A stretch of DNA of 64,000 nucleotides from an uncultured Gammaproteobacteria bacterium. GTDB lineage: Bacteria > Pseudomonadota > Gammaproteobacteria > HK1. Under the pieces are notes generated by a model that was not told where the DNA came from, did no database searches, and saw only the letters and a program-made list of their open reading frames with translations. Every line of letters begins with the position of its first letter. The stretch's first letter is position 1. Shown here piece by piece: positions 35,887 through 47,577 of this stretch. The stretch lies in the NCBI GenBank assembly GCA_958295465.1, contig OY282353.1, positions 3,339,001 through 3,403,000 on the forward strand, in the 5' to 3' direction. The translations under genes and the position numbers were made by a program.

Positions 35887-37611
35887 CTACTCCCGCGTGC
35901 CACGCCCGGGGGGACAGGAGATGCACCGGCGCCGGCACAGGCACGAGGACCGGATCGGCACGTCCGTCCTCGCCAGCGCCAGGGCGAGCCGCGGGGCCAC
36001 CAGCGCCGCCTCGGCCTGCTTGCCCCGGCGCACGAGGCATTCGTGAAAGCCGTGCAGGCTCCAGACGTTGTCGGGATGCCGGCAGGCCCGGAGCGGAGCG
36101 TCGCCGCCGAGCCCGAGGTCGGCCCGGTAGACGGCCTCCGCCTCCTCGACCCGGCCCTGCTCCAGCAGGAGCGCCCCGAGCGCGTGCCGCGGCGGCTGCA
36201 TCCAGCCCCAGGGCTCGTCGTAGGGCAGCGCGTCGGCGAGCCGGACCGCGGCGCGAAGGTGCTCGAACGCGGTCTCGTGATCGCCCGCGCGGTAGCTCAC
36301 CTCCCCGTGCAGCATCCGCGCCGCGATGGCGAGGATGTCGAGGCAGGTGTTGTTGAACACGATGCGCGTGGCCGGCACCCGGTCCACCGCGGCCTCGAAG
36401 CGCGACCGCTCGACTTCCGCCGCGGGCACGTCCTCCAGCACCGCGTGCGCGAGGCCCCTGGCGTAGTGCAGCATCGCGGTGGTGGTGCAGTAGAACGCGC
36501 GGTCCTCCGGCAGCGGCATGGCGAGGATCTCGTGCCACTTGCCGAAGCGGATCGGCGCGTGCACCTGCATCGCCACGTAGCCTTCCAGCCAGTCCGCCAT
36601 CGGCGGGCTTTCCGTGCGGAGCACCGATTCGGGAACGGCCTCCAGCAGGCCCGCCGTCGCGGTCGTCGCAGCCCGGTGATGGCCCAGCAGCATCGCCCCG
36701 TAGAGCATGAAGTGGTAGTTGTGCGCGAAGGAGAGCGCGAACCAGGGGCCGGGGGCCTCGCGCTCGAAGTACTTCCGATCGGCGGCGACGGCGCGGGCGT
36801 TCCATTCCACCGTCGCGTGGTAGTCCCCGCACTGGACGTCGATGTGGGTGGGCATGTGCCGCAGGTGGCCCGCGTCGGGCACGAGGTCGCGCAGGCGGTC
36901 GGCGGCGCGCAGCGCCCGTTCCGGATGCGGAGACATCTCCAGGACGTGGAGGTACATGTGCAGCAGGCCGGGATGGTCCGGCTGGCCCGCGGCTTCGCGG
37001 GCGCCGATGCCTTCTTCGAGCGCCGCGAGCGCTTCGAGGGTGTCCGCGCCCTCGGCCGGCTCGCCCGTCCCGAGATCCCACAAGGCCCAGGGCGTGCGGT
37101 TCATGAGCGCCTCGGCGAACAATGTGCACACGTCCGGATCGCCCGGGAACGCCCGGTACGCCTCGCGCATCGCATCGGCGTAGTCGTCGTTCCACCGGTC
37201 GAAGTCGCCGGCTTCGGCCGGCCCGGATGACGAGCAACGCCGCGCGAGCGCCTCGACGAGCGCCCGCTCGACCGGGCTCGCGTTCCCGATGCGATCGAGC
37301 GCCTCCCGGGTGGCGGCGCGGACCTCGCCCAGAGTAGCCGCGAGATCGGCCGGGTCGAACTTGCTCCACGGCTTGTTGTAGTAGGGCCCGGCGGCGTAGC
37401 CGATCCCCCACCAGGCCATCGCGCAGCCGGGGTCGTGTCCGGCCGCCCGCCGGAAGCAGCGCACCGCCTCCTCGTGGCTGAAGGCATAGCACCACACCAG
37501 CCCCCGGTCGAACCAGCGTTGCGCCTCGGCCGAGCGGGTCGAGACGGCGCGGGAGAAGGTCCCGAGATCGTAGTCGTAGTGGTCGCCGGTGCTCGTCATC
37601 TCGCTTTCCAT
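35887..37611 (-). CDS. TPR-repeat protein of unknown function, full-length copy
   Basis: 574 residues. Starts MESEMTSTGDHYDYDLGTFS; MTSTG at 37599 is an alternative start. Helical pairs such as EAQRWFDRGLVWCYAFSHEE, AVRCFRRAAGHDPGCAMAWW and HPGLLHMYLHVLEMSPHPER are tetratricopeptide-like. The last 25 residues (SSCLCRRRCISCPPGR) are cysteine-rich and may be a shifted end. Function not known. The start lies one base after the stop of the restriction gene upstream. Its first 420 residues are duplicated at 46296-47555. Confidence 0.8.
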   Translation of the reverse strand: MESEMTSTGDHYDYDLGTFSRAVSTRSAEAQRWFDRGLVWCYAFSHEEAVRCFRRAAGHDPGCAMAWWGIGYAAGPYYNKPWSKFDPADLAATLGEVRAATREALDRIGNASPVERALVEALARRCSSSGPAEAGDFDRWNDDYADAMREAYRAFPGDPDVCTLFAEALMNRTPWALWDLGTGEPAEGADTLEALAALEEGIGAREAAGQPDHPGLLHMYLHVLEMSPHPERALRAADRLRDLVPDAGHLRHMPTHIDVQCGDYHATVEWNARAVAADRKYFEREAPGPWFALSFAHNYHFMLYGAMLLGHHRAATTATAGLLEAVPESVLRTESPPMADWLEGYVAMQVHAPIRFGKWHEILAMPLPEDRAFYCTTTAMLHYARGLAHAVLEDVPAAEVERSRFEAAVDRVPATRIVFNNTCLDILAIAARMLHGEVSYRAGDHETAFEHLRAAVRLADALPYDEPWGWMQPPRHALGALLLEQGRVEEAEAVYRADLGLGGDAPLRACRHPDNVWSLHGFHECLVRRGKQAEAALVAPRLALALARTDVPIRSSCLCRRRCISCPPGRGTRE

Positions 37612-37633
37612 CTCACTGGCCGCGGGGCGGGGC
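36352..37633. repeat. 1.28-kb direct repeat, copy A (TPR gene 5' part)
   Basis: Matches 46296-47577 at a constant offset of 9944 bp with only scattered substitutions and the same orientation. It covers the start of the TPR gene and about 20 bp upstream. With copy B it brackets the modification-restriction operon. Confidence 0.93.
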
Positions 37634-40600
37634 AGCCGGCGCAGCGGCGTCCACGCCCGACACGCCGTCGGGCGAAGAACGGCTTTGTTCCATACCAGCG
37701 CCCCGGGCGTCGATCAGATTCGCGAAGTCGGCATCGAGCGACTGCGGGTTCCGGCAGACGAGGAAACGCCACTCGCCGAGCCGGCCCCAGTGGTTGACCG
37801 CGGAGACCCAACGCCTTGCCGCCTGGTGCTTGACGTCCGTGTCCTCGTGCGACCGTCCCTTGATTTCCAGAACGACGTTAAGGCCGTTCGCCAGCTTCAC
37901 GATGAAGTCGGGCTCGTAGGCGCGCGGAGTGCCGTAGAGCTCGAAGGGGATGTTGAACTCGAGGCGGTCGTTGCGTGCGTAGCAGTGGACGATGCCGTCG
38001 TTGGCCAGCTTCTCGAGCCGGAACGTCGCGGCCTGCTCCCAGGTACCGGTGTCGCAGGCCACGTGGTTCAGATGGCTGGCGAAGGTCGCCTGGACGGGCT
38101 TCACCGTCTTGAAGTGGACGCTGCCGGTGCTCCCGATGGGCCGGTAACGGTTCAACCTCGGCAGCAACGGCGCTTCGTCCTTCGAGTCGTCGGGCATGAT
38201 CGCGGCGACCAGCAGATCCACGATGCGCCGGGCGTAGGTCTGCAACCCGACGTCGCAGGGATGCAGGCCGTTCAGGTCCACGCGCTTGCGGACGTAGTCC
38301 GAGACGATGCGCAGCACTTGGGGAAACAGGGTCCGGCGGCTTTCGCATCGCAGCCGCTCCTTGCCGGGGTGTGCGGCCTCCGTGAGCGCCCGCACGATCT
38401 CGACGGCGATGGCGAACGCGATCGTCTGCGGGTGCACCGAGTCGTAGTACTGCCGGCGATCCACTTCCTCGAACCCGAATCCGCCGTATGCGCCCGGGTG
38501 GCCGATCTGGTATCCGACCTGCGGGCGCACGAAGGCGGCGGTCGGCGTGGCCCATGGATCCAGCGAAGTCCGCTCCACGGCGTCGAGGTCACAGGCGATG
38601 CGGTTCTTCTTCAACGACACGACGTAACCTTCGACGATCGGAAACCGGATCTCGAACGCCTTTCGCTCCGGCAGGGCCATGACCTCGTGCCTGGGGCGGT
38701 CTTCCGGTGGCGGCCCGCCTCCCGGCTGGCGGCCCTTGAACGGAATGAGCGAGAACGGGACTCCGAAGACGTCGACGTATTCGGCGGTCAGGAGTCCCGT
38801 TTCCGGATCGGGCGTGTAATCCATCCTGCGCAGCCCCCGCCCGACCACCTGCTCACACAGAAGCTGGCTGTGGAACGCGCGCAACCCCAGGATATGCGTG
38901 ACGTTGTTGGCGTCCCAGCCCTCGCTCAGCATGTTGACGCTCACCACGCAGCGGATACGTTCCCCCGGTTCGCCCGGAGCGCCCACCGTCGAAACGATCT
39001 TCCGCAACTCCTCCGCGGCGTGCTTCCTGGTGGCCTTAGGGTCCTCGCTCTCCGCCGCCGCGAGCAGCTTCGAATCGATGCGCAACGTGACCTCGGCGCC
39101 GTCCCGGTTCCACAGCTCGGGGAACCCCGGCAGCCCCGCGCCATAACGCTTGACCGCCTTCGGCTTCTTGCTCTTGTTCCTCGGGCTTTCGGGCGAATCG
39201 CCGTTGCCGTCGTCGTCGTCTTCCATCTCATCGGCCGCCCCGGCCGCCACCAGCTCCTCGCCCGAGATCATCCGGTGGAAATGCTCCGCGACGTCGGTGT
39301 TGTCGCAGACCGCGATCATCACCGGCGGGGTCCGGTCCTGCCCCGGGGCCGACGCCTGCACCTGATCGAAGCGTTCCTTCCACTCCCCCGCGAGCGTGAG
39401 CAGCGCGGCTTCCGCCTCGCGGTAGGCGGCCTCGGGCTTCGGCTTGCCTCCCGGCAACCGGTCCCCCGGCTTGAGGCGCTTCGCCACGTGCTCCCACAGC
39501 CTGAAGTACACGGGATCGGGGCGGCCCGTGCTGTCGATCGCCGGGAGGCGGGGGATCTTGGTGATCCCCGATTCGATGGCGTCCACCAGACTGAAGTCGC
39601 TGACGATCCAGGGGAAGGGGGAACCCTCGGGATATCCGCTTCCGTGGAGGTAGAAGGGCGTCGCCGAAAGATCCACGCAGAGCCCGATCCCGCAGGCGGC
39701 GTTGATCCGGTCCAGGCCGCTCACCCAGACCGTCGCTTCCTCGCGGTCCGCCTTTTCCTCGGAGGACAGCTTCGTCTTCTCGCCGACCGGGGCGGGACGA
39801 TACGCATGGTGTCCCTCGTCGTTCAGCACCATCAGCGGCTCGTCGTCCCAGAGATCGCCGAGGCGGCCGCGGGCGAACGCCTCGGGTGTTTCGTCCCCCA
39901 GCTTGCCGACCGGCACCCCACCCACCGTGATGACGTCGGATTCCGGACTCAGGACGTGCCAGTTCGTGACCAGCACCTTGCCCTTCGCCAGCTCGGGGCG
40001 CAGTGAGGAGGGCACGACGTCGAACTTCTCGTAATAGTTGCCCGGATCGCCGGGCCGCAACACGCTCAGGCGTTCCCTGATCGTCAGGTTCGGACAGACC
40101 ACCAGCACCCGGCGGGGATAGCGCGGATCACCGGGCTTCGTCCCGCGGTTGCAGAACGCCCACGCGATGAGCATGGACATGACCACGGTCTTGCCGGCGC
40201 CCGTCGCCATCTTGCAGGCATAGCGCGGAATGGACGCCGCTCCGGCTTCGTTGGGAACATCGGAGAGCTTGGGATGCTGCGCAACCCTGGCCACCCATTC
40301 GTCCGGCCTGGGGTTGCGTCCCGCTTCCAGCATCCTGAATTCGTCCGGGGCAAGTTGCGGCTTCCAGCGCGGCTTCCGTCCCGCGACCAGGATCTCCCGG
40401 AGGTAGACGATCGTCTCGGCGGCTTCGAGCTGGCAGAAGAACAGGCGCCGCGTCCGATCCTCGCGCCACCAGTGGCGGAGCAGCTTCTTCGTCGTCTCCG
40501 AAGCGTTCTGCCAACCGGATTTCCGCCAGCGCCGCACGTCGTCCCGGAGCGCGTTGACGAGCGGCAGATCGTCCCGTTCTTCCTCGGCGAGCAGGGACCG

Positions 40601-40774
40601 TTGCGCGCTGCCGGTCCGCTCGCTCTTGTACCAGTAGCTCGCCTCCCTGCGGGCCGGAACCTTCGAGGGCCTGCCCGTCTTCGTGTCGTAGAGCCAATGC
40701 AGGCCGGGTTCCTCGTAGGGGGAGCAGAGGATGGGGTCCTCGACCGGCTGGATGGGGATCTGGATTTCCGGCAT
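37613..40774 (-). CDS. Type III-like restriction subunit: SF2 helicase with C-terminal nuclease
   Basis: 1053 residues. Walker A MATGAGKT (189-196), a DEAH-type box VLNDEGHHAYRP, SATPFYLHG and motif VI QVVGRGLRRMDY define an SF2 translocase. EPDFIVKLANGLNVVLEIKG near the C-terminus is a PD-(D/E)XK nuclease core. It resembles Res subunits of type III-like restriction systems. The start lies 3 bp after the TOPRIM-like gene. The last 25 residues run into the duplicated TPR block and are probably not native, suggesting the 3' end was set by the island's integration. Confidence 0.88.
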   Translation of the reverse strand: MPEIQIPIQPVEDPILCSPYEEPGLHWLYDTKTGRPSKVPARREASYWYKSERTGSAQRSLLAEEERDDLPLVNALRDDVRRWRKSGWQNASETTKKLLRHWWREDRTRRLFFCQLEAAETIVYLREILVAGRKPRWKPQLAPDEFRMLEAGRNPRPDEWVARVAQHPKLSDVPNEAGAASIPRYACKMATGAGKTVVMSMLIAWAFCNRGTKPGDPRYPRRVLVVCPNLTIRERLSVLRPGDPGNYYEKFDVVPSSLRPELAKGKVLVTNWHVLSPESDVITVGGVPVGKLGDETPEAFARGRLGDLWDDEPLMVLNDEGHHAYRPAPVGEKTKLSSEEKADREEATVWVSGLDRINAACGIGLCVDLSATPFYLHGSGYPEGSPFPWIVSDFSLVDAIESGITKIPRLPAIDSTGRPDPVYFRLWEHVAKRLKPGDRLPGGKPKPEAAYREAEAALLTLAGEWKERFDQVQASAPGQDRTPPVMIAVCDNTDVAEHFHRMISGEELVAAGAADEMEDDDDGNGDSPESPRNKSKKPKAVKRYGAGLPGFPELWNRDGAEVTLRIDSKLLAAAESEDPKATRKHAAEELRKIVSTVGAPGEPGERIRCVVSVNMLSEGWDANNVTHILGLRAFHSQLLCEQVVGRGLRRMDYTPDPETGLLTAEYVDVFGVPFSLIPFKGRQPGGGPPPEDRPRHEVMALPERKAFEIRFPIVEGYVVSLKKNRIACDLDAVERTSLDPWATPTAAFVRPQVGYQIGHPGAYGGFGFEEVDRRQYYDSVHPQTIAFAIAVEIVRALTEAAHPGKERLRCESRRTLFPQVLRIVSDYVRKRVDLNGLHPCDVGLQTYARRIVDLLVAAIMPDDSKDEAPLLPRLNRYRPIGSTGSVHFKTVKPVQATFASHLNHVACDTGTWEQAATFRLEKLANDGIVHCYARNDRLEFNIPFELYGTPRAYEPDFIVKLANGLNVVLEIKGRSHEDTDVKHQAARRWVSAVNHWGRLGEWRFLVCRNPQSLDADFANLIDARGAGMEQSRSSPDGVSGVDAAAPAAPPRGQ

Positions 40775-40777
40775 GGC

Positions 40778-41395
40778 TCAGGGTGCGGGGTTCGGCGCAG
40801 TGTGCGGTGCAGGGTTGAAGGTTCCAGGTGCTTCGAGGTGGGCGGCGATTCGATCGCGCAGGGACTGGAGCTCGGGACAAAGCCGGAACAGGCGAGGCAG
40901 GTTGGCCAGCGACGCCGAAATCATCAGATCCCTGCCTGCGCCGGCCCTTCGAGGATCGCCGTGGCTGGCGAGCAGGGGCGCGAAAATCTCCTCTTTCATC
41001 CGCGGATGGCGGCGGGCTTCCTCCCAGATGCCCGTTCCCGGGAGTTCGTTGCGGAACGCGGCGCAGGCGTAGATCTCTACTTCAGGCTGTGCGGCACAGC
41101 ACAGCAACGCGATTCCCTGCTTGGCGACATGTTCCTCCAGAGCCTGCATGGCATCGTCGGTGGCCTTGTCGGCATCCGGGAAGAACAGCCACAAGTCCTT
41201 GAAGCGGTATCTTCCCGGAAGCTCGTCTCGGATGACTTGTACGGCGTGGTCGTATCCGCGGAGCCTCGGGTTGCTCAGCACGTCCACCTTCGCGGCCGGT
41301 CTGCCCGCATCCGCCATGATGGCCTTGGCCAAGGGCTTCAGGATGTGGCCGTTGAGCATGGGATCTTCGGGAATGACGAGCACGGTGAAGCTCAT
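40778..41395 (-). CDS. TOPRIM-like (DUF4276-type) partner protein
   Basis: 205 residues. MSFTVLVIPEDPMLNGHILK, then DLWLFFPDADKATDDAM, give an acidic residue followed by a DxD, in the spacing of TOPRIM-like nucleases. CCAAQPEVEIYACAAF follows. It probably works with the ATPase encoded just before it, as in OLD-like two-gene systems. The ATG overlaps the ATPase stop (ATGA). The C-terminus is a low-complexity NPAPHTAPNPAP tail. The nuclease assignment is from pattern, not proven. Confidence 0.65.
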   Translation of the reverse strand: MSFTVLVIPEDPMLNGHILKPLAKAIMADAGRPAAKVDVLSNPRLRGYDHAVQVIRDELPGRYRFKDLWLFFPDADKATDDAMQALEEHVAKQGIALLCCAAQPEVEIYACAAFRNELPGTGIWEEARRHPRMKEEIFAPLLASHGDPRRAGAGRDLMISASLANLPRLFRLCPELQSLRDRIAAHLEAPGTFNPAPHTAPNPAP

Positions 41396-42621
41396 GACGC
41401 CGCTTCGAGCCAGCCTTCCGAGAACAGTTCTGAAGCCGGTGTCTTCTTGATGACGTCCATGAATTGGGGTACGTCGGCCAGGGAGCGGATCTTCGTTTCA
41501 CCCGTTGATTCATTCCGCGTACACAGGAAGGTGGTCTTGTAGTCTTCTTCCTGAAGCCAGTCCAGAATCTCCGGCGAGTGTGTCGTTGCGAAAATTTGTA
41601 TCTTCGCGGCTTCGGCTTGGGTGCGAAACAGCTCCAACAGAAGCTGAACGCGGCTCGCATGGATGCCGTTCTCGATCTCCTCGATCGTCATGATGCCGGG
41701 CATGTCGGGCTGGAAGAAGGCAGCCGTGAGTGCCGCGAAACGCAAGGTGCCGTCGCTCAGGACGGGCGCCGGATACTCTTTCCCATTCTCCCGAAGCATG
41801 AACATCGGTTCACCGACAGCGCCGGTCAAGGTCCCGACGTCGTCCACCTCTTCCGGACGAAGTTGACGCAGCCATGCGAGATAGACGTCCTTGGTTTTTT
41901 CGTCTTGACAGAGCGTTTTGATCAGAGCTGCGAAGTTTTCCCCATGGCTACCCATGCGCTGGGTGCTACCATATTGAGAATAAGATCCGAGTATTGCCGG
42001 TCTGAGGGCTATAAATTGCATATCCGAAAACAACTTTGGCAAAGATATGAGAGGCGTTAATAACACAGTTTCGTCTTTAATAAAAAAATGCTGAAATAAT
42101 TCCCACCATTTTGTGCCACCGAGCATTGATTCCAGATTTTTATGTGTAAAAGATAATCTGAAATTAAGTATCGATAGAAATGGCAGGAATGGATCTGCAT
42201 GTATCTTATTAGCATCCTTGCGGGAATAATTAAATTCATCCTCTATGTCTATGACTTCGTCGATTATTTCCCTTTTCTTTGACGAAAACGCAATTTTATA
42301 TTCCCATTTCATCGAAGATGATTCTTCCAACCTACCGAATGCAGTGATCGCTACTTCATCTTTTACAACAGGATTGGAGAAGCACGCATATTTACTTCCT
42401 CCACGAATACCCGCCCATACCTCGCTGGTCGTACTTCTCGGTTTTCCGTTGAGAATCTCATCGATCGTAAAACCATTACCGATGCCTTCCAGCACTCGCA
42501 ACGCTTCGAGGAAATTCGATTTTCCGCTCGCATTGGTCCCGATGAACAGATTCACCCGTCCCAGTGACAGATCCACGCTTCGCAGGCTCTTGAAATTCTC
42601 GATGACGATACGTTCGATCAT
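41392..42621 (-). CDS. OLD/AAA15-type ATPase in the modification-restriction operon
   Basis: 409 residues from MIERIVIENFKSLRSVDLSL. P-loop GTNASGKS at 28-35. Late motifs VLSDGTLRFAALTAAFF and PGIMTIEEIENGIHASR (Walker B), then IFATTHSPEILDWL (H-loop), are typical of stand-alone AAA15/OLD ATPases. The middle third (about 41900-42400) is clearly AT-richer than either end. The ATG lies 2 bp after the methyltransferase stop; an earlier in-frame start would overlap that gene by over 70 bp. Confidence 0.88.
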   Translation of the reverse strand: MIERIVIENFKSLRSVDLSLGRVNLFIGTNASGKSNFLEALRVLEGIGNGFTIDEILNGKPRSTTSEVWAGIRGGSKYACFSNPVVKDEVAITAFGRLEESSSMKWEYKIAFSSKKREIIDEVIDIEDEFNYSRKDANKIHADPFLPFLSILNFRLSFTHKNLESMLGGTKWWELFQHFFIKDETVLLTPLISLPKLFSDMQFIALRPAILGSYSQYGSTQRMGSHGENFAALIKTLCQDEKTKDVYLAWLRQLRPEEVDDVGTLTGAVGEPMFMLRENGKEYPAPVLSDGTLRFAALTAAFFQPDMPGIMTIEEIENGIHASRVQLLLELFRTQAEAAKIQIFATTHSPEILDWLQEEDYKTTFLCTRNESTGETKIRSLADVPQFMDVIKKTPASELFSEGWLEAAS

Positions 42622-42623
42622 GT

Positions 42624-45600
42624 TCACTCCCCCAAGGTCAACACCCGCAAGCCCTCGTTGCCGCGGGGATCGATCACCTTGACCGCGACCCGCCACGCCT
42701 GTCCCTTACCCAACCGGGACGGCTTTGGGAAGGGGAGGCTCGTCAGGCCGCTGAGCGCATCGAATGCGCCCCGCTCCACCGCCCCGACGTCGTCGAGCGC
42801 CTTGGCCAGTCGGTCCCACTTGCTCTTGTCGGGAAAGAACGCCTGACAGATGCAGAAGGTCCGGCCGTCGTAGTCCGTATCGAGAAACCATGCCGCGATT
42901 CGCTGCCGGTCGGTCGGGTAGAGCATGTTGCTCACCGGGTCGTAGACGTCCATGCCCTCGACCTCGACGGCGTACTCTCCGTCCTCCCGACGCATCGGCC
43001 CCTTCACGCGGGGCGCGCTGAAGACGGTGAAGAGCTGGCTGCCCGGCTGCGTCTTCAGCAGGTCGTCCATGGCCACGTCCGGGCGGATCAGCGCCATGTG
43101 CAGGCGCAGCTTCGGATGGCTGGCGCTCTCGATGGCGTCCTGCGCCGCCGCGTCGAACCCGAATCCGGCAAACACCACGTCGTCGTATCCCGACCGGTTG
43201 GCGCTCCGGATCGCATCCTCCACCTGCATCGCGGCCACGTTGCCGACCTCCGGGCCGATGCTGACGGCGATCCTTCGCTCTTCCCCCGTGCCGTTCAGCC
43301 ACTCGCCTTCCGCGTGGATCAGGGCCGCGCCGGTCAGCGGCTCGATCCGACTGAACTTCATGTTCCGGTTGCCCGGGAAATCCACACCCGCCGCCTTGAG
43401 CAACCGGATGACCTTGTCGAGATGCGCCTCGGCATTTGCTACGGCTACGTCTCCCGCTTCATCTCCGTCGAAGACCTCCATCTCCTCGTCGGGGGCGCCG
43501 CCGATGGGAGAGTGCGGACCGTCCAGCGGTCCGGGACCGTTGAGCGGTCCGGGGCCGTCGAGCAGTCCAGGACCGTCGAGCAGTCCAGGACCGTCGAGCA
43601 GTCCAGGACCGTCGAGCGACCCGGGGGCGTCGGAGTGGTGCGGACCGGACGGACGGTCCGGGCCTTCCTCCACCGCGATCACGCCCTCCATCGTGAACGG
43701 TCCCGAAACGCGCACCGTCCCCTTGACGATCTCCGGCTTGTCCACCAACTCCTCCGAGGTCGCGTTGGCGGCGATGCACTCGTTGACTTCGTCCATCTTC
43801 GCCCGCCACGCGGCGCGGTAGGCGGTCAGTGCCTCCCGCAAGGGCTCCGGCCAGTCGGGGTCGGTATCGAAGGGAATTTCCCATTCCTTCCACTCCCCGC
43901 GCGGAATCTTCTCGCGGTACTTCTCGACCTGTCTGGCCGTGACGCCCTTGAACGGCCTGCGGGCGGGAGCGGTCCTGATCCGTTGGGGAGGTGCGTCCGG
44001 CAGGAGCCAGCGGCGCACGTCTGCGTCCGTGATGGCGCTGGCCCCTTCCTTGCGGTGCTTGTCGATGAGCTTGTCGGCCAGTGCCGACTTCAGGTCCGCG
44101 CCGACCTTGGCGGCTTCGCGGTTCAACGTGGCGAGTTTCTGGACGAGGATCGGTTCGTGCCTGTCGAAGATGGGGTCGAGCGAGGTGTTGCGGGCGATGC
44201 TGCGCAACGTGACGTGTGGGACAGTTTGGCAGTCGAAGGTCAATCGCCTGCCGGTCGGTTTGCCTTTCCCGTCCAGCTCGGCGATCCAGGTTCCGTGAGG
44301 GCTGCGCTCCCTGTCTTCGGCGTTCAACTCGCGAAGCTGGTAGTAGTCGAACTTGGCCGTCATCAGGCGGTGTTTGGCCAGCGACAAGGCTACTCGGCTA
44401 GTGTCGGTGGTGATCCAGCGGCGGCCCCACTGTTCTGCTGCATGGGCTGTTGTTCCGCTTCCACAAGTTGGATCTAGTACCAGATCTCCCGGATCTGTGG
44501 TCATAAGAATACAGCGTTCGATAACTTTAGATGCCGTTTGTACAATATATATTTTTTCTTCTCCAGAAAACCCGGCTATTGCCGTATCATCCCATCTATC
44601 CGTTACAGGATACACAGGATAATCGTCAAAATATCGCTTATAGTTTGGGGATAAACCAAGAAGTAGTAGCCTGTTGGCTGACACTAGGCGTCTTCGTCCC
44701 TCAGAATTGGTTTTCCAGTGATGAGAGATTCCGCAATGAAACATTTGTCCGTTCAACCTCAATATTCCATCATCGCCAGAAGTTGCATTTTGTGATCGAA
44801 AATTCTGTGCCGATAGTACTCGCCATTTTTCTGGTATGAGTCTGTTAACTTGTATTTCCTCATCAGTCATTCTTCGCCATGTCCCATCTGGAGATTCGAC
44901 GATTGAATAACTGGCAAGTGCAGTAGTCGTTTTCTTCCAGTACAGTTGCCGATATTTCACCTTATTTCTATCTTTGCAATACCACAATATGTAGTCGCCA
45001 CTGGACGGTAGTAGAGAGCTGGCTTGCCCTGTGGTTTTGCTGAACCAAATTGTACTAATGCAATTTCCTATACCAAACACCTCATCCATCACACACCGCA
45101 CGCGATGCAGATTCTCGTCGCTGATCTGCACGAAGATGCTGCCGGTATCGGCAAGCAGCTCCCTCGCCATCGCCAGCCGGTCGCGCAGATAGGCGAGGTA
45201 CGAGTGGATGCCGAGCGTCCAGGTGTCCCGATACGCCTTGACCATTTCCGGCTCTCGGGTCAGATCCTGCTCCCGATCCTTGACGTCGCGCTGGCCGAGC
45301 TGCGGTTGGAAGTTCGATGCGAACTTGATGCCGTAGGGCGGGTCCACGTAGATCATCTGCACCTTGCCCGCCAGGTCCTCGCGGCGCGCGAGGCTCGCCA
45401 TCACCTGGAGCGAGTCGCCGAGGATCATCCGGTTCGTCCAGTCCACGTCGTGACGGTAGAACTGGACCGCCTTCGCGTAGTCCTGCTGCGGGTCGGCGAA
45501 GAGGTCCCGGTGGACGTCCTTCCGTGCCAGCACCCGCAGGATGGCCTGGGTGGAAACCCGTTCGTGCATGTGCAGGGCCACCGGATCGACCTCGAACCAC

Positions 45601-45935
45601 GGTCTCTCCCGCTTGCCGCTCCATTCCAGCCACGGCTCGTAGCGCTCCAGCGCCGCGGCCAGGATGCCCGCCTCCTCCTCGGAAAGCGCACGTTGCCGGG
45701 CGGTTGCCAGGAGCTCCTGCAACCCGTCGGTCGCCGCCGGATCGGGTGACGACCGCAGCACCGGAGGCAAGTGCGGGTCGTGCCGGTAGTAAACCGCCTC
45801 CTCCTCTTTGACGAAGCCTTGCGCTTCGAGCCCCGCCAGGGGAATGTTCTTCCGGGTCGCCGGATACTTGAGCGACGTGACGGCCTCGCTGCTCGCACTT
45901 TCCGGGGCCGTTGGAGTTTTCTTCCGGCGCGGCAT
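42624..45935 (-). CDS. Type III-like adenine-specific DNA methyltransferase (Mod)
   Basis: 1103 residues from MPRRKKTPTAPESAS. Catalytic DPPY at 198-201 (MIYVDPPYGIKFASNF). The SAM-binding motif DPTCGSGTTAHAA comes about 300 residues later, so the order is beta-class (N6-adenine). The region between (about 44400-45060) is AT-rich and is the likely target-recognition part, probably swapped in. A long C-terminal extension holds six 18-bp repeats (residues about 771-806, DGPGLL units). AGGA stands 8 nt upstream of the ATG at 45935. First gene of a four-gene operon. Confidence 0.9.
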   Translation of the reverse strand: MPRRKKTPTAPESASSEAVTSLKYPATRKNIPLAGLEAQGFVKEEEAVYYRHDPHLPPVLRSSPDPAATDGLQELLATARQRALSEEEAGILAAALERYEPWLEWSGKRERPWFEVDPVALHMHERVSTQAILRVLARKDVHRDLFADPQQDYAKAVQFYRHDVDWTNRMILGDSLQVMASLARREDLAGKVQMIYVDPPYGIKFASNFQPQLGQRDVKDREQDLTREPEMVKAYRDTWTLGIHSYLAYLRDRLAMARELLADTGSIFVQISDENLHRVRCVMDEVFGIGNCISTIWFSKTTGQASSLLPSSGDYILWYCKDRNKVKYRQLYWKKTTTALASYSIVESPDGTWRRMTDEEIQVNRLIPEKWRVLSAQNFRSQNATSGDDGILRLNGQMFHCGISHHWKTNSEGRRRLVSANRLLLLGLSPNYKRYFDDYPVYPVTDRWDDTAIAGFSGEEKIYIVQTASKVIERCILMTTDPGDLVLDPTCGSGTTAHAAEQWGRRWITTDTSRVALSLAKHRLMTAKFDYYQLRELNAEDRERSPHGTWIAELDGKGKPTGRRLTFDCQTVPHVTLRSIARNTSLDPIFDRHEPILVQKLATLNREAAKVGADLKSALADKLIDKHRKEGASAITDADVRRWLLPDAPPQRIRTAPARRPFKGVTARQVEKYREKIPRGEWKEWEIPFDTDPDWPEPLREALTAYRAAWRAKMDEVNECIAANATSEELVDKPEIVKGTVRVSGPFTMEGVIAVEEGPDRPSGPHHSDAPGSLDGPGLLDGPGLLDGPGLLDGPGPLNGPGPLDGPHSPIGGAPDEEMEVFDGDEAGDVAVANAEAHLDKVIRLLKAAGVDFPGNRNMKFSRIEPLTGAALIHAEGEWLNGTGEERRIAVSIGPEVGNVAAMQVEDAIRSANRSGYDDVVFAGFGFDAAAQDAIESASHPKLRLHMALIRPDVAMDDLLKTQPGSQLFTVFSAPRVKGPMRREDGEYAVEVEGMDVYDPVSNMLYPTDRQRIAAWFLDTDYDGRTFCICQAFFPDKSKWDRLAKALDDVGAVERGAFDALSGLTSLPFPKPSRLGKGQAWRVAVKVIDPRGNEGLRVLTLGE
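43517..43624. repeat. Six 18-bp tandem repeats inside the Mod gene
   Basis: Units start at 43517, 43535, 43553, 43571, 43589 and 43607, of the form GACCGTCGAGCAGTCCAG. The fourth and fifth are identical. They encode six-residue Leu/Asp/Gly/Pro units between the methyltransferase core and the C-terminal domain. The period keeps the reading frame. Confidence 0.93.
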
Positions 45936-46295
45936 GGCTCGATTCCTGGCTTGGGGGCGTGCGGCCCGTACAGGATTTCCGATCGTGTCAGGGCAGCTTT
46001 CCGGCCTCAGCCGCCCGACCGTCCTGCCCCGATGCATCCGACTGCTTCGGGAATTCTAGCCGTTTCAGAGAGCTGCCGCTCTTGCCCTGCCAGAGAGAGC
46101 GGATCGGCAGCGAGGGGCCGGGAGCTGGCGGCTGCACGCTGCTCCCGGATCAGCCTGCTCTCCACTGGATTCGTCCGATGCCGAGTTCAGGATCCGGCGT
46201 TGCCATCCCTCTCGATGCCCGCGCCGACGCGGGACAGCAGTTCGGCGCCGGTGCCGCATTCGATGACCCAGTCGCCTACCTGGAGCATTTCCGTC
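45936..46295. other. Spacer left of TPR copy B
   Basis: No supported gene. A 33-codon minus frame (MLQVGDWVIECGTGAELLSR) just outside the repeat resembles a SAM-methyltransferase glycine motif and could be a gene scrap; the evidence is thin. The operon promoter for the methyltransferase gene should lie here. Confidence 0.4.
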
Positions 46296-47555
46296 GTTGA
46301 ACACGATGCGCGTGGCCGGCACCCGGTCCACCGCGGCCTCGAAACGCGACCGCTCGGCTTCCGCCGCGGGCACGTCCTCCAGCACCGCGTGCGCGAGCCC
46401 CCTGGCGTAGTGCAGCATCGCGGTGGTGGTGCAGTAGAGGATGGGATCCTCCGGCAGCGGCATGGCGAGGATCTCGCGCCATTTCCCGAAGCGGATGGGC
46501 GCGTGCACCTGCATCGCCACGTAGCCTTCCAGCCAGTCCGCCATCGGCGGGCTCTCCACGCGGAGCACCGATTCGGGGATGGCCTCCAGCAGGCCCGCCG
46601 TCGCGGCCGTCGCGGCCCGGTGATGGCCCAGCAGCATCGCCCCGTAGAGCATGAAGTGGTAGTTGTGCGCGAAGGAGAGCGCGAACCAGGGGCCGGGGGC
46701 CTCGCGCTCGAAGTACTTCCGATCGGCGGCGACGGCGCGGGCGTTCCATTCCACCGTTGCGTGGTAATCCCCGCACTGGACGTCGATGTGGGTGGGCATG
46801 TGCCGCAGATGGCCCGCGTCGGGCACGAGGTCGCGCAGGCGGTCGGCGGCGCGCAGCGCCCGTTCCGGATGCGGGGACATCTCCAGGACGTGGAGGTACA
46901 TGTGCAGCAGGCCGGGATGATCCGGCTGGCCCGCGGCTTCGCGGGCGCGGATGCCTTCTTCGAGCGCCGCGAGCGCTTCGAGGGTATCCGCGCCCTCGGC
47001 CGGCTCGCCCGTCCCGAGGTCCCACAAGGCCCAGGGCGTGCGGTTCATGAGCGCCTCGGCGAACAATGCGCACACGTCCGGATCGCCCGGGAACGCCCGG
47101 TACACCTCGCGCATCGCATCGGCGTAGTCGTCGTTCCACCGGTCGAAGTCGCCGGCTTCGGCCGGCCCGGATGGCGAGCAACGCCGCGCGAGCGCTTCGA
47201 CGAGCACCCGCTCCACCGGGCTCGTGTTCCCGATGCGCTCCAGCACTTCCCGGGTGGCGGCGCGGACCTCGCCCAGGGTGGCCGCGAGATCGGCCGGGTC
47301 GAACTTGCTCCACGGCTTGTTGTAGTACGGCCCGGCCGCGTAGCCGATCCCCCACCAGGCCATCGCGCAACCGGGGTCGTGCCCGGCCGCCCGCCGGAAG
47401 CAGCGCACCGCCTCCTCGTGGCTGAAGGCATAGCACCACACCAGCCCCCGGTCGAACCAGCGCTGCGCCTCGGCCGAGCGGGTCGAGACGGCGCGGGAGA
47501 AGGTCCCGAGATCGTAGTCGTAGTGGTCGCCGGGATTCGTCATCTCGCCTTCCAT
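46065..47555 (-). pseudogene. 3'-truncated copy of the TPR-repeat gene
   Basis: Residues 1 to about 420 (MEGEMTNPGDHYDYDLGTFS through VPATRIVFN) parallel the intact gene at 35887-37611. The frame then continues as unrelated sequence (DGNAPGRRLGHRMRHRRRTA) for about 77 residues. The last 155 residues of the parent are missing. Copy B keeps the 5' flank next to sucB, so it probably occupies the ancestral upstream junction. It may still be translated but is likely non-functional. Confidence 0.85.
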
Positions 47556-47577
47556 CTCACTGGCCGCAGGGCGGGGC
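46296..47577. repeat. 1.28-kb direct repeat, copy B
   Basis: Partner of 36352-37633, same orientation, constant 9944-bp offset. The match stops abruptly at 46296 on the left and near 47577 on the right. Confidence 0.93.

Follow-up and report, generated by a model that had tools for sequence, protein, structure and literature searches.

The window, a stretch of 64,000 nucleotides from an uncultured gammaproteobacterium, contains a type III-like restriction-modification (R-M) operon in which genes for an ABC ATPase and a small TOPRIM-like protein stand between mod and res. We consider it moderately probable that the Mod-Res junction forms a slot and that the pair held in it is a sensor-effector module that arrests the infected cell. 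The operon lies on the minus strand in the order Mod, ATPase, TOPRIM-like protein, Res. All four reading frames are open and bear out the order and the junctions given in a preliminary description of this DNA: 2 bp between the Mod stop codon and the ATPase ATG, an overlap of 4 bp (-4) between the ATPase and TOPRIM genes, and 3 bp between the TOPRIM and Res genes. No signs of decay were seen in the four genes, and their motifs are intact. The features of the locus are:

42624..45935, minus strand: Mod, beta-type N6/N4 methyltransferase, type III-like, with DPPY before CGSG; the reading frame is open to 46037
41392..42621, minus strand: ATPase of the ABC/OLD-PtuA type, 409 aa, with Walker A, signature, Walker B and H-loop
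41947..42351, minus strand: hypervariable lobe of the ATPase (codons 91-225), proposed sensor of phage products
40778..41395, minus strand: small TOPRIM-like protein, 205 aa, with E10, D74xD76 and E105xE107; proposed nuclease effector
37613..40774, minus strand: Res, BPTD_3080-family SF2 helicase with a C-terminal PD-ExK nuclease motif
36349..37633, no strand assigned: direct repeat of a TPR-protein gene on the 3' side of the operon, 96% identical to the other copy
46292..47576, no strand assigned: direct repeat of the TPR-protein gene on the 5' side of the operon, a truncated gene copy

The 1.28 kb direct repeats of the TPR-protein gene (96% identical) bracket the operon, and the upstream copy is broken off at the start of the R-M segment. 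A sister genome (L053) has a single TPR copy in the stretch retrieved. The arrangement looks like integration by homologous recombination. A search inside the operon, which was not informative, returned four weak promoter-like matches and no minus-strand terminator.

The Mod reading frame opens at 46037 and has an in-frame ATG at 45935; 42624-45935 is taken as the better gene because this ATG matches the only start available in a relative (L055). Mod matches N6_N4_Mtase in Pfam (2.7e-32) and MTase_III in PADLOC (7.3e-170), and the motif order read in the sequence, DPPY before CGSG, is of the beta type. Res belongs to NCBIfam NF046055 (BPTD_3080), with 898.4 bits against a cut-off of 800. Helicase motifs (TGAGKT, DEGH, SATP, GRGLRR) and a PD...ExK nuclease motif at the C-terminus can be read in its sequence; comparison with the PDB by sequence profile gave no credible match. 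From these features Mod and Res are a BPTD_3080-type (type III-like) R-M system, for which methylation and restriction activity are predicted. The window resembles the BPTD_3080 family in a Res above the family cut-off and a linked beta-type Mod, but its Res falls in a Mod-first clade and it carries cargo in the Mod-Res junction, whereas most of the higher-scoring members examined, including one in the same genome, are ordered Res then Mod.

Within Mod, an in-frame 18-bp tandem repeat (43516-43617 in the window, 5.7 copies) encodes a GLLDGP-like linker. Most of the copies are missing from the Mod of L053, so that linker length differs between the sister genomes. Another BPTD_3080 system of the same genome (L155, 2.918-2.937 Mb) has the order Res-x-Mod with a small insert, and near it an AAA_21 ATPase gene is followed by a gene for a 222-aa protein lacking a Pfam match.

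The ATPase has a complete set of motifs: Walker A (GTNASGKSN), signature (LSDGTLRF), Walker B (IEEIENGIH) and H-loop (ATTHS). In Pfam it matches AAA_21 (1.5e-28, 101.2 bits) and AAA_15 (64.3 bits). Its best PADLOC profiles are PDC-M07A (2e-58) and HEC-01A (1.5e-37), and AriA is matched at 2.4e-30. In structure comparison the model superposes on PtuA, SMC and Rad50 heads with Z 17-20. Assignment to Mad3 of MADS was rejected (98.9 bits, where the cut-off is 420).

The second protein of the pair was recognized by the layout of its acidic residues, with E10 after strand 1, D74xD76 after strand 3 and a later E105xE107. E10, D74 and D76 are invariant in 11 sequences; E105xE107 is invariant too. The structure model (pLDDT 85) has strands at residues 4-9 and 68-72 in a Rossmann-like core. 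No match was found to any model in Pfam (up to E 10), NCBIfam or PADLOC, DUF4276 (PF14103) included, and none that was credible in the PDB by sequence profile. Foldseek returned unrelated Rossmann-like folds (best E 0.009). The C-terminal region of OLD is a weak match to the model (Z 6.2-6.3, 158-162 residues aligned), and Argonaute MID and lumazine synthase score level with it or above it. We therefore propose a TOPRIM assignment from motif order and topology and make no fold claim from structure matches. A remote profile similarity to DUF4276 (78.5% probability, E 1.7e-5) was detected; hhalign against three DUF4435 proteins found nothing.

The Res protein was scanned against about 85,000 species genomes, which gave 287 matches, and the best 80 were kept. 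Among these the order Mod-ATPase-TOPRIM-Res, whose frequency the preliminary description had proposed to count, is present in six other genomes: the sister genome L053, with a Res 98% identical, another gammaproteobacterium (L054), two Acidobacteriota (L055, L082), a member of the Spirochaetota (Spirochaetia; L061) and Leptothrix (L070). Because the order recurs in this way, the arrangement is more than chance, and insertion of the pair in this genome only, which would have spoken against a common system, is excluded. All of the recurrent operons come from metagenome-assembled genomes. However, L082 and L053 are labelled chromosomes, the contig with the L061 operon is 1.65 Mb long, and the operons differ by at least 9%, mostly by 20-40%, the pair of the window and L053 excepted; recurrence is therefore not explained by binning error.

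The ATPase and TOPRIM genes overlap by exactly 4 bp in all seven operons, and Mod and ATPase overlap by 4 bp in four of them. Across the seven, protein distances correlate with those of Res (Mod r 0.95, TOPRIM 0.92, ATPase 0.77; Mantel p 0.0002-0.0012); the genes of the operon have therefore been passed on together, by descent or by transfer. The tight coupling of translation, which is conserved, and the divergence of the four proteins in step with one another also speak for a single machine, in which the ATPase and TOPRIM proteins would be accessory Mod-Res subunits with a role in gating or extending restriction (Res-dependent loading of the TOPRIM nuclease on foreign DNA would be one way). 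We regard this as unlikely, since Mod directly adjoins Res, with no pair in between, in almost half of those Res relatives that could be assessed, among them the close relatives L057, L062 and L064 (71-77% Res identity).

On a tree built from 79 Res proteins, the pair occupies seven rows, which requires five changes. Mod and Res are adjacent in 30 rows, and about 31 rows have another spacer or insert, a count that includes short spacers and some gaps with no convincing gene. Identified inserts are TIR/SEFIR (L129), Fic (L108, L125), a zeta-toxin-like kinase (L104), PIN (L131), DUF3800 (L099 and a Thermus plasmid, L050), AlbA_2 with a HATPase domain (L113), AAA_14/DUF4143 (L066), DUF1828 (L103) and an AAA_21 ATPase with a small partner (L118). 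Large proteins fill the position in Phycisphaerales (L126:8667-9968, L127:8707-9966); the L126 protein has a faint match to DAC (diadenylate cyclase), which makes nucleotide-signalling cargo possible there. Inserts in Poribacteria (L093:8772-9983, L101:8369-9983, L122:8859-10004) have similar C-terminal halves, and no convincing Pfam family was found for them. In L060 a fragment of the TOPRIM gene is left between Mod and Res, a relic of pair loss, and L063 has kept the ATPase with no TOPRIM gene beside it. The three Res relatives on viral contigs all have Mod and Res less than 50 bp apart and no pair. Since relatives carry varied inserts, the pair or directly adjacent genes, the Mod-Res junction behaves as a cargo slot. 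The presence of unrelated genes in this position is also at odds with a single machine.

Related pairs were found in other settings. A Brasilonema plasmid carries an isolated two-gene ATPase-TOPRIM cassette, also with a 4-bp overlap, and one viral contig has a copy among phage structural genes. A related pair is joined by DUF499 in L134 (ATPase, TOPRIM, DUF499) and in L158 (HEPN, DUF1156 methylase, ATPase, TOPRIM, DUF499), so that two different systems based on methyltransferases harbour pairs of this kind. Such occurrences, alone and in DUF499 loci, again count against a single machine. Relatives without the pair, other inserts in the junction and pairs elsewhere together lead us to read the pair as a swappable backup module, not as subunits of one machine. 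Of the two readings offered in the preliminary description, a single machine or a backup module, the second has thus gained indirect support (relatives lacking the pair, pairs alone or in other systems, toxin-like replacements) and the first is not supported.

The embedded pairs resemble that of the window closely (ATPase 55-76%, TOPRIM 62-98% identity), and the standalone and DUF499 pairs only at about 26-30% (TOPRIM 26-29%). This suggests one capture into the R-M clade followed by losses, over repeated capture. That the pair is instead an independent defence cassette using the Mod-Res junction for expression or co-transfer, with no functional link to restriction, seems quite unlikely to us: standalone and phage-borne relatives, the mixed cargo of the slot, and pair loss with its remnant in L060 fit such a passenger, but the seven embedded pairs are mutually much closer than they are to the standalone ones, which points to one lineage kept with the R-M clade across three phyla.

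The genome that contains the window is rich in pairs of ATPase and TOPRIM-like proteins. Two further ATPase-TOPRIM pairs are found at 4.648 Mb (L016:8293-10184) and 3.471 Mb (L017:8021-9322); one is intact, with a fragment behind it that is similar to the beginning of a DUF499 protein, and in the other the TOPRIM gene is cut after 30 codons. At least five DUF4276 proteins lie beside AAA_21-like ATPases (for example at 3.552, 4.270, 1.889, 0.170 and 1.916 Mb).

Comparison of the window with L053 bears on the sensor part of the proposed backup module. Synonymous divergence (dS) is 0.072 for Mod, 0.464 for the ATPase, 0.063 for the TOPRIM gene and 0.041 for Res; dN of the ATPase is 0.14. The divergence is confined to about 42565-41500, with both limits within approximately 100 bp of the ATPase gene ends. 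Between the two genomes the ATPase allele alone has been swapped, and the rise in dS beside that in dN points to replacement by recombination and not to fast protein evolution alone. For TOPRIM and Res, dN/dS is 0.14-0.17, as in ordinary purifying selection. Amino-acid change peaks at ATPase codons 91-225. The seven ATPases share 26-33% identity over residues 91-215, compared with 87% over residues 1-60 and 79-87% in the nucleotide-binding parts. This combination of a conserved motor and a lobe that is hypervariable and recombines would be expected if the ATPase senses phage proteins.

The closest functional parallel is PARIS, in which the ABC ATPase AriA sequesters the TOPRIM tRNase AriB and a phage trigger such as Ocr leads to its release (PMC12409363, PMC9122126); PARIS does not need R-M in the cell (PMC9122126). 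It shares with the window a split two-gene ABC ATPase/TOPRIM pair, an AAA_21 ATPase and a proposed role as an abortive backup to restriction. PARIS has been delimited by an AAA_15/AAA_21 ATPase above 32/27 bits and a DUF4435 partner above 27 bits (PMC9122126). The window ATPase exceeds the former thresholds (AAA_15 64.3 bits, AAA_21 101.2 bits), but classification as PARIS was rejected, as the TOPRIM partner has no DUF4435 match by Pfam or hhalign. The partner is closer to DUF4276-type proteins, and the pair is nested between Mod and Res.

OLD-ABC and TOPRIM modules have been described as backup effectors within BREX and DUF499 BREX-related (Hma) systems in a 2026 survey (PMC12839542). There too a pair of like kind sits inside a methyltransferase-based defence operon, as in L158, whereas the host system in the window is a type III-like Mod-Res. 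The phrase "type III R" does not occur in the main text of that survey. Membership in DUF499/Hma was rejected, with no DUF499 ATPase or DUF1156 methylase among the four window proteins. OLD class 1 and Gabija GajA were also rejected, as ATPase and TOPRIM are encoded by two genes (4 bp overlap) and not in one chain; they are the only genes between Mod and Res, with no GajB-type extra gene. The uncharacterised PADLOC candidates PDC-M07 and HEC-01 share the ATPase component (PDC-M07A, HEC-01A), but the TOPRIM partner in the window matches no PADLOC model. Neither P0002 (the TOPRIM-like protein) nor P0007 matched a PDC-M07 model, and no paper naming PDC-M07 was found in a literature search.

That the four-part order is not known as a named system, as the preliminary description has it, holds for PADLOC 2.0.0, NCBIfam and the literature searched, although the general theme of nested OLD-ABC and TOPRIM modules has been published (PMC12839542). 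The parts and the backup theme are already known; no description was found of the slot (cargo between mod and res), of a split pair within it or of an ATPase-only swap.

We infer a role in phage defence as follows. Mod and Res would carry out ordinary self/non-self restriction. The ABC ATPase, in complex with the TOPRIM protein, would keep it inactive and watch the cell through the hypervariable lobe. The trigger would be a phage product, most plausibly an anti-restriction protein or another conserved early phage protein, upon which the ATPase would free or activate the TOPRIM nuclease. Cleavage of tRNA, as in the analogous case of AriB, or of DNA would then arrest the infected cell. By analogy with PARIS, the pair may act once restriction has been overcome, and it is likewise by analogy that an anti-restriction protein is suggested as the trigger.

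A broader proposal, which we put forward tentatively, is that the slot is dedicated and functionally coupled, housing unrelated second-line effectors that fire when restriction is blocked, with the sensor part of the ATPase swapped alone, through recombination, to track phage triggers as they change. Its cargo may include ATPase-TOPRIM, TIR, Fic, zeta-like kinase, PIN and DUF3800 proteins and perhaps the DAC-like ones.

If the slot reading is true, type III-like R-M operons would be a modular chassis, with a fixed Mod-Res and a socket for exchangeable backup effectors, and would in this resemble BREX and DUF499 systems, which are already thought to be modular. Genes between Mod and Res would offer a simple route to new effectors, and the self-guarding of defence operons against anti-restriction proteins could be addressed in one locus, where the ATPase-only allele swap points to the sensor part expected to bind the phage trigger.
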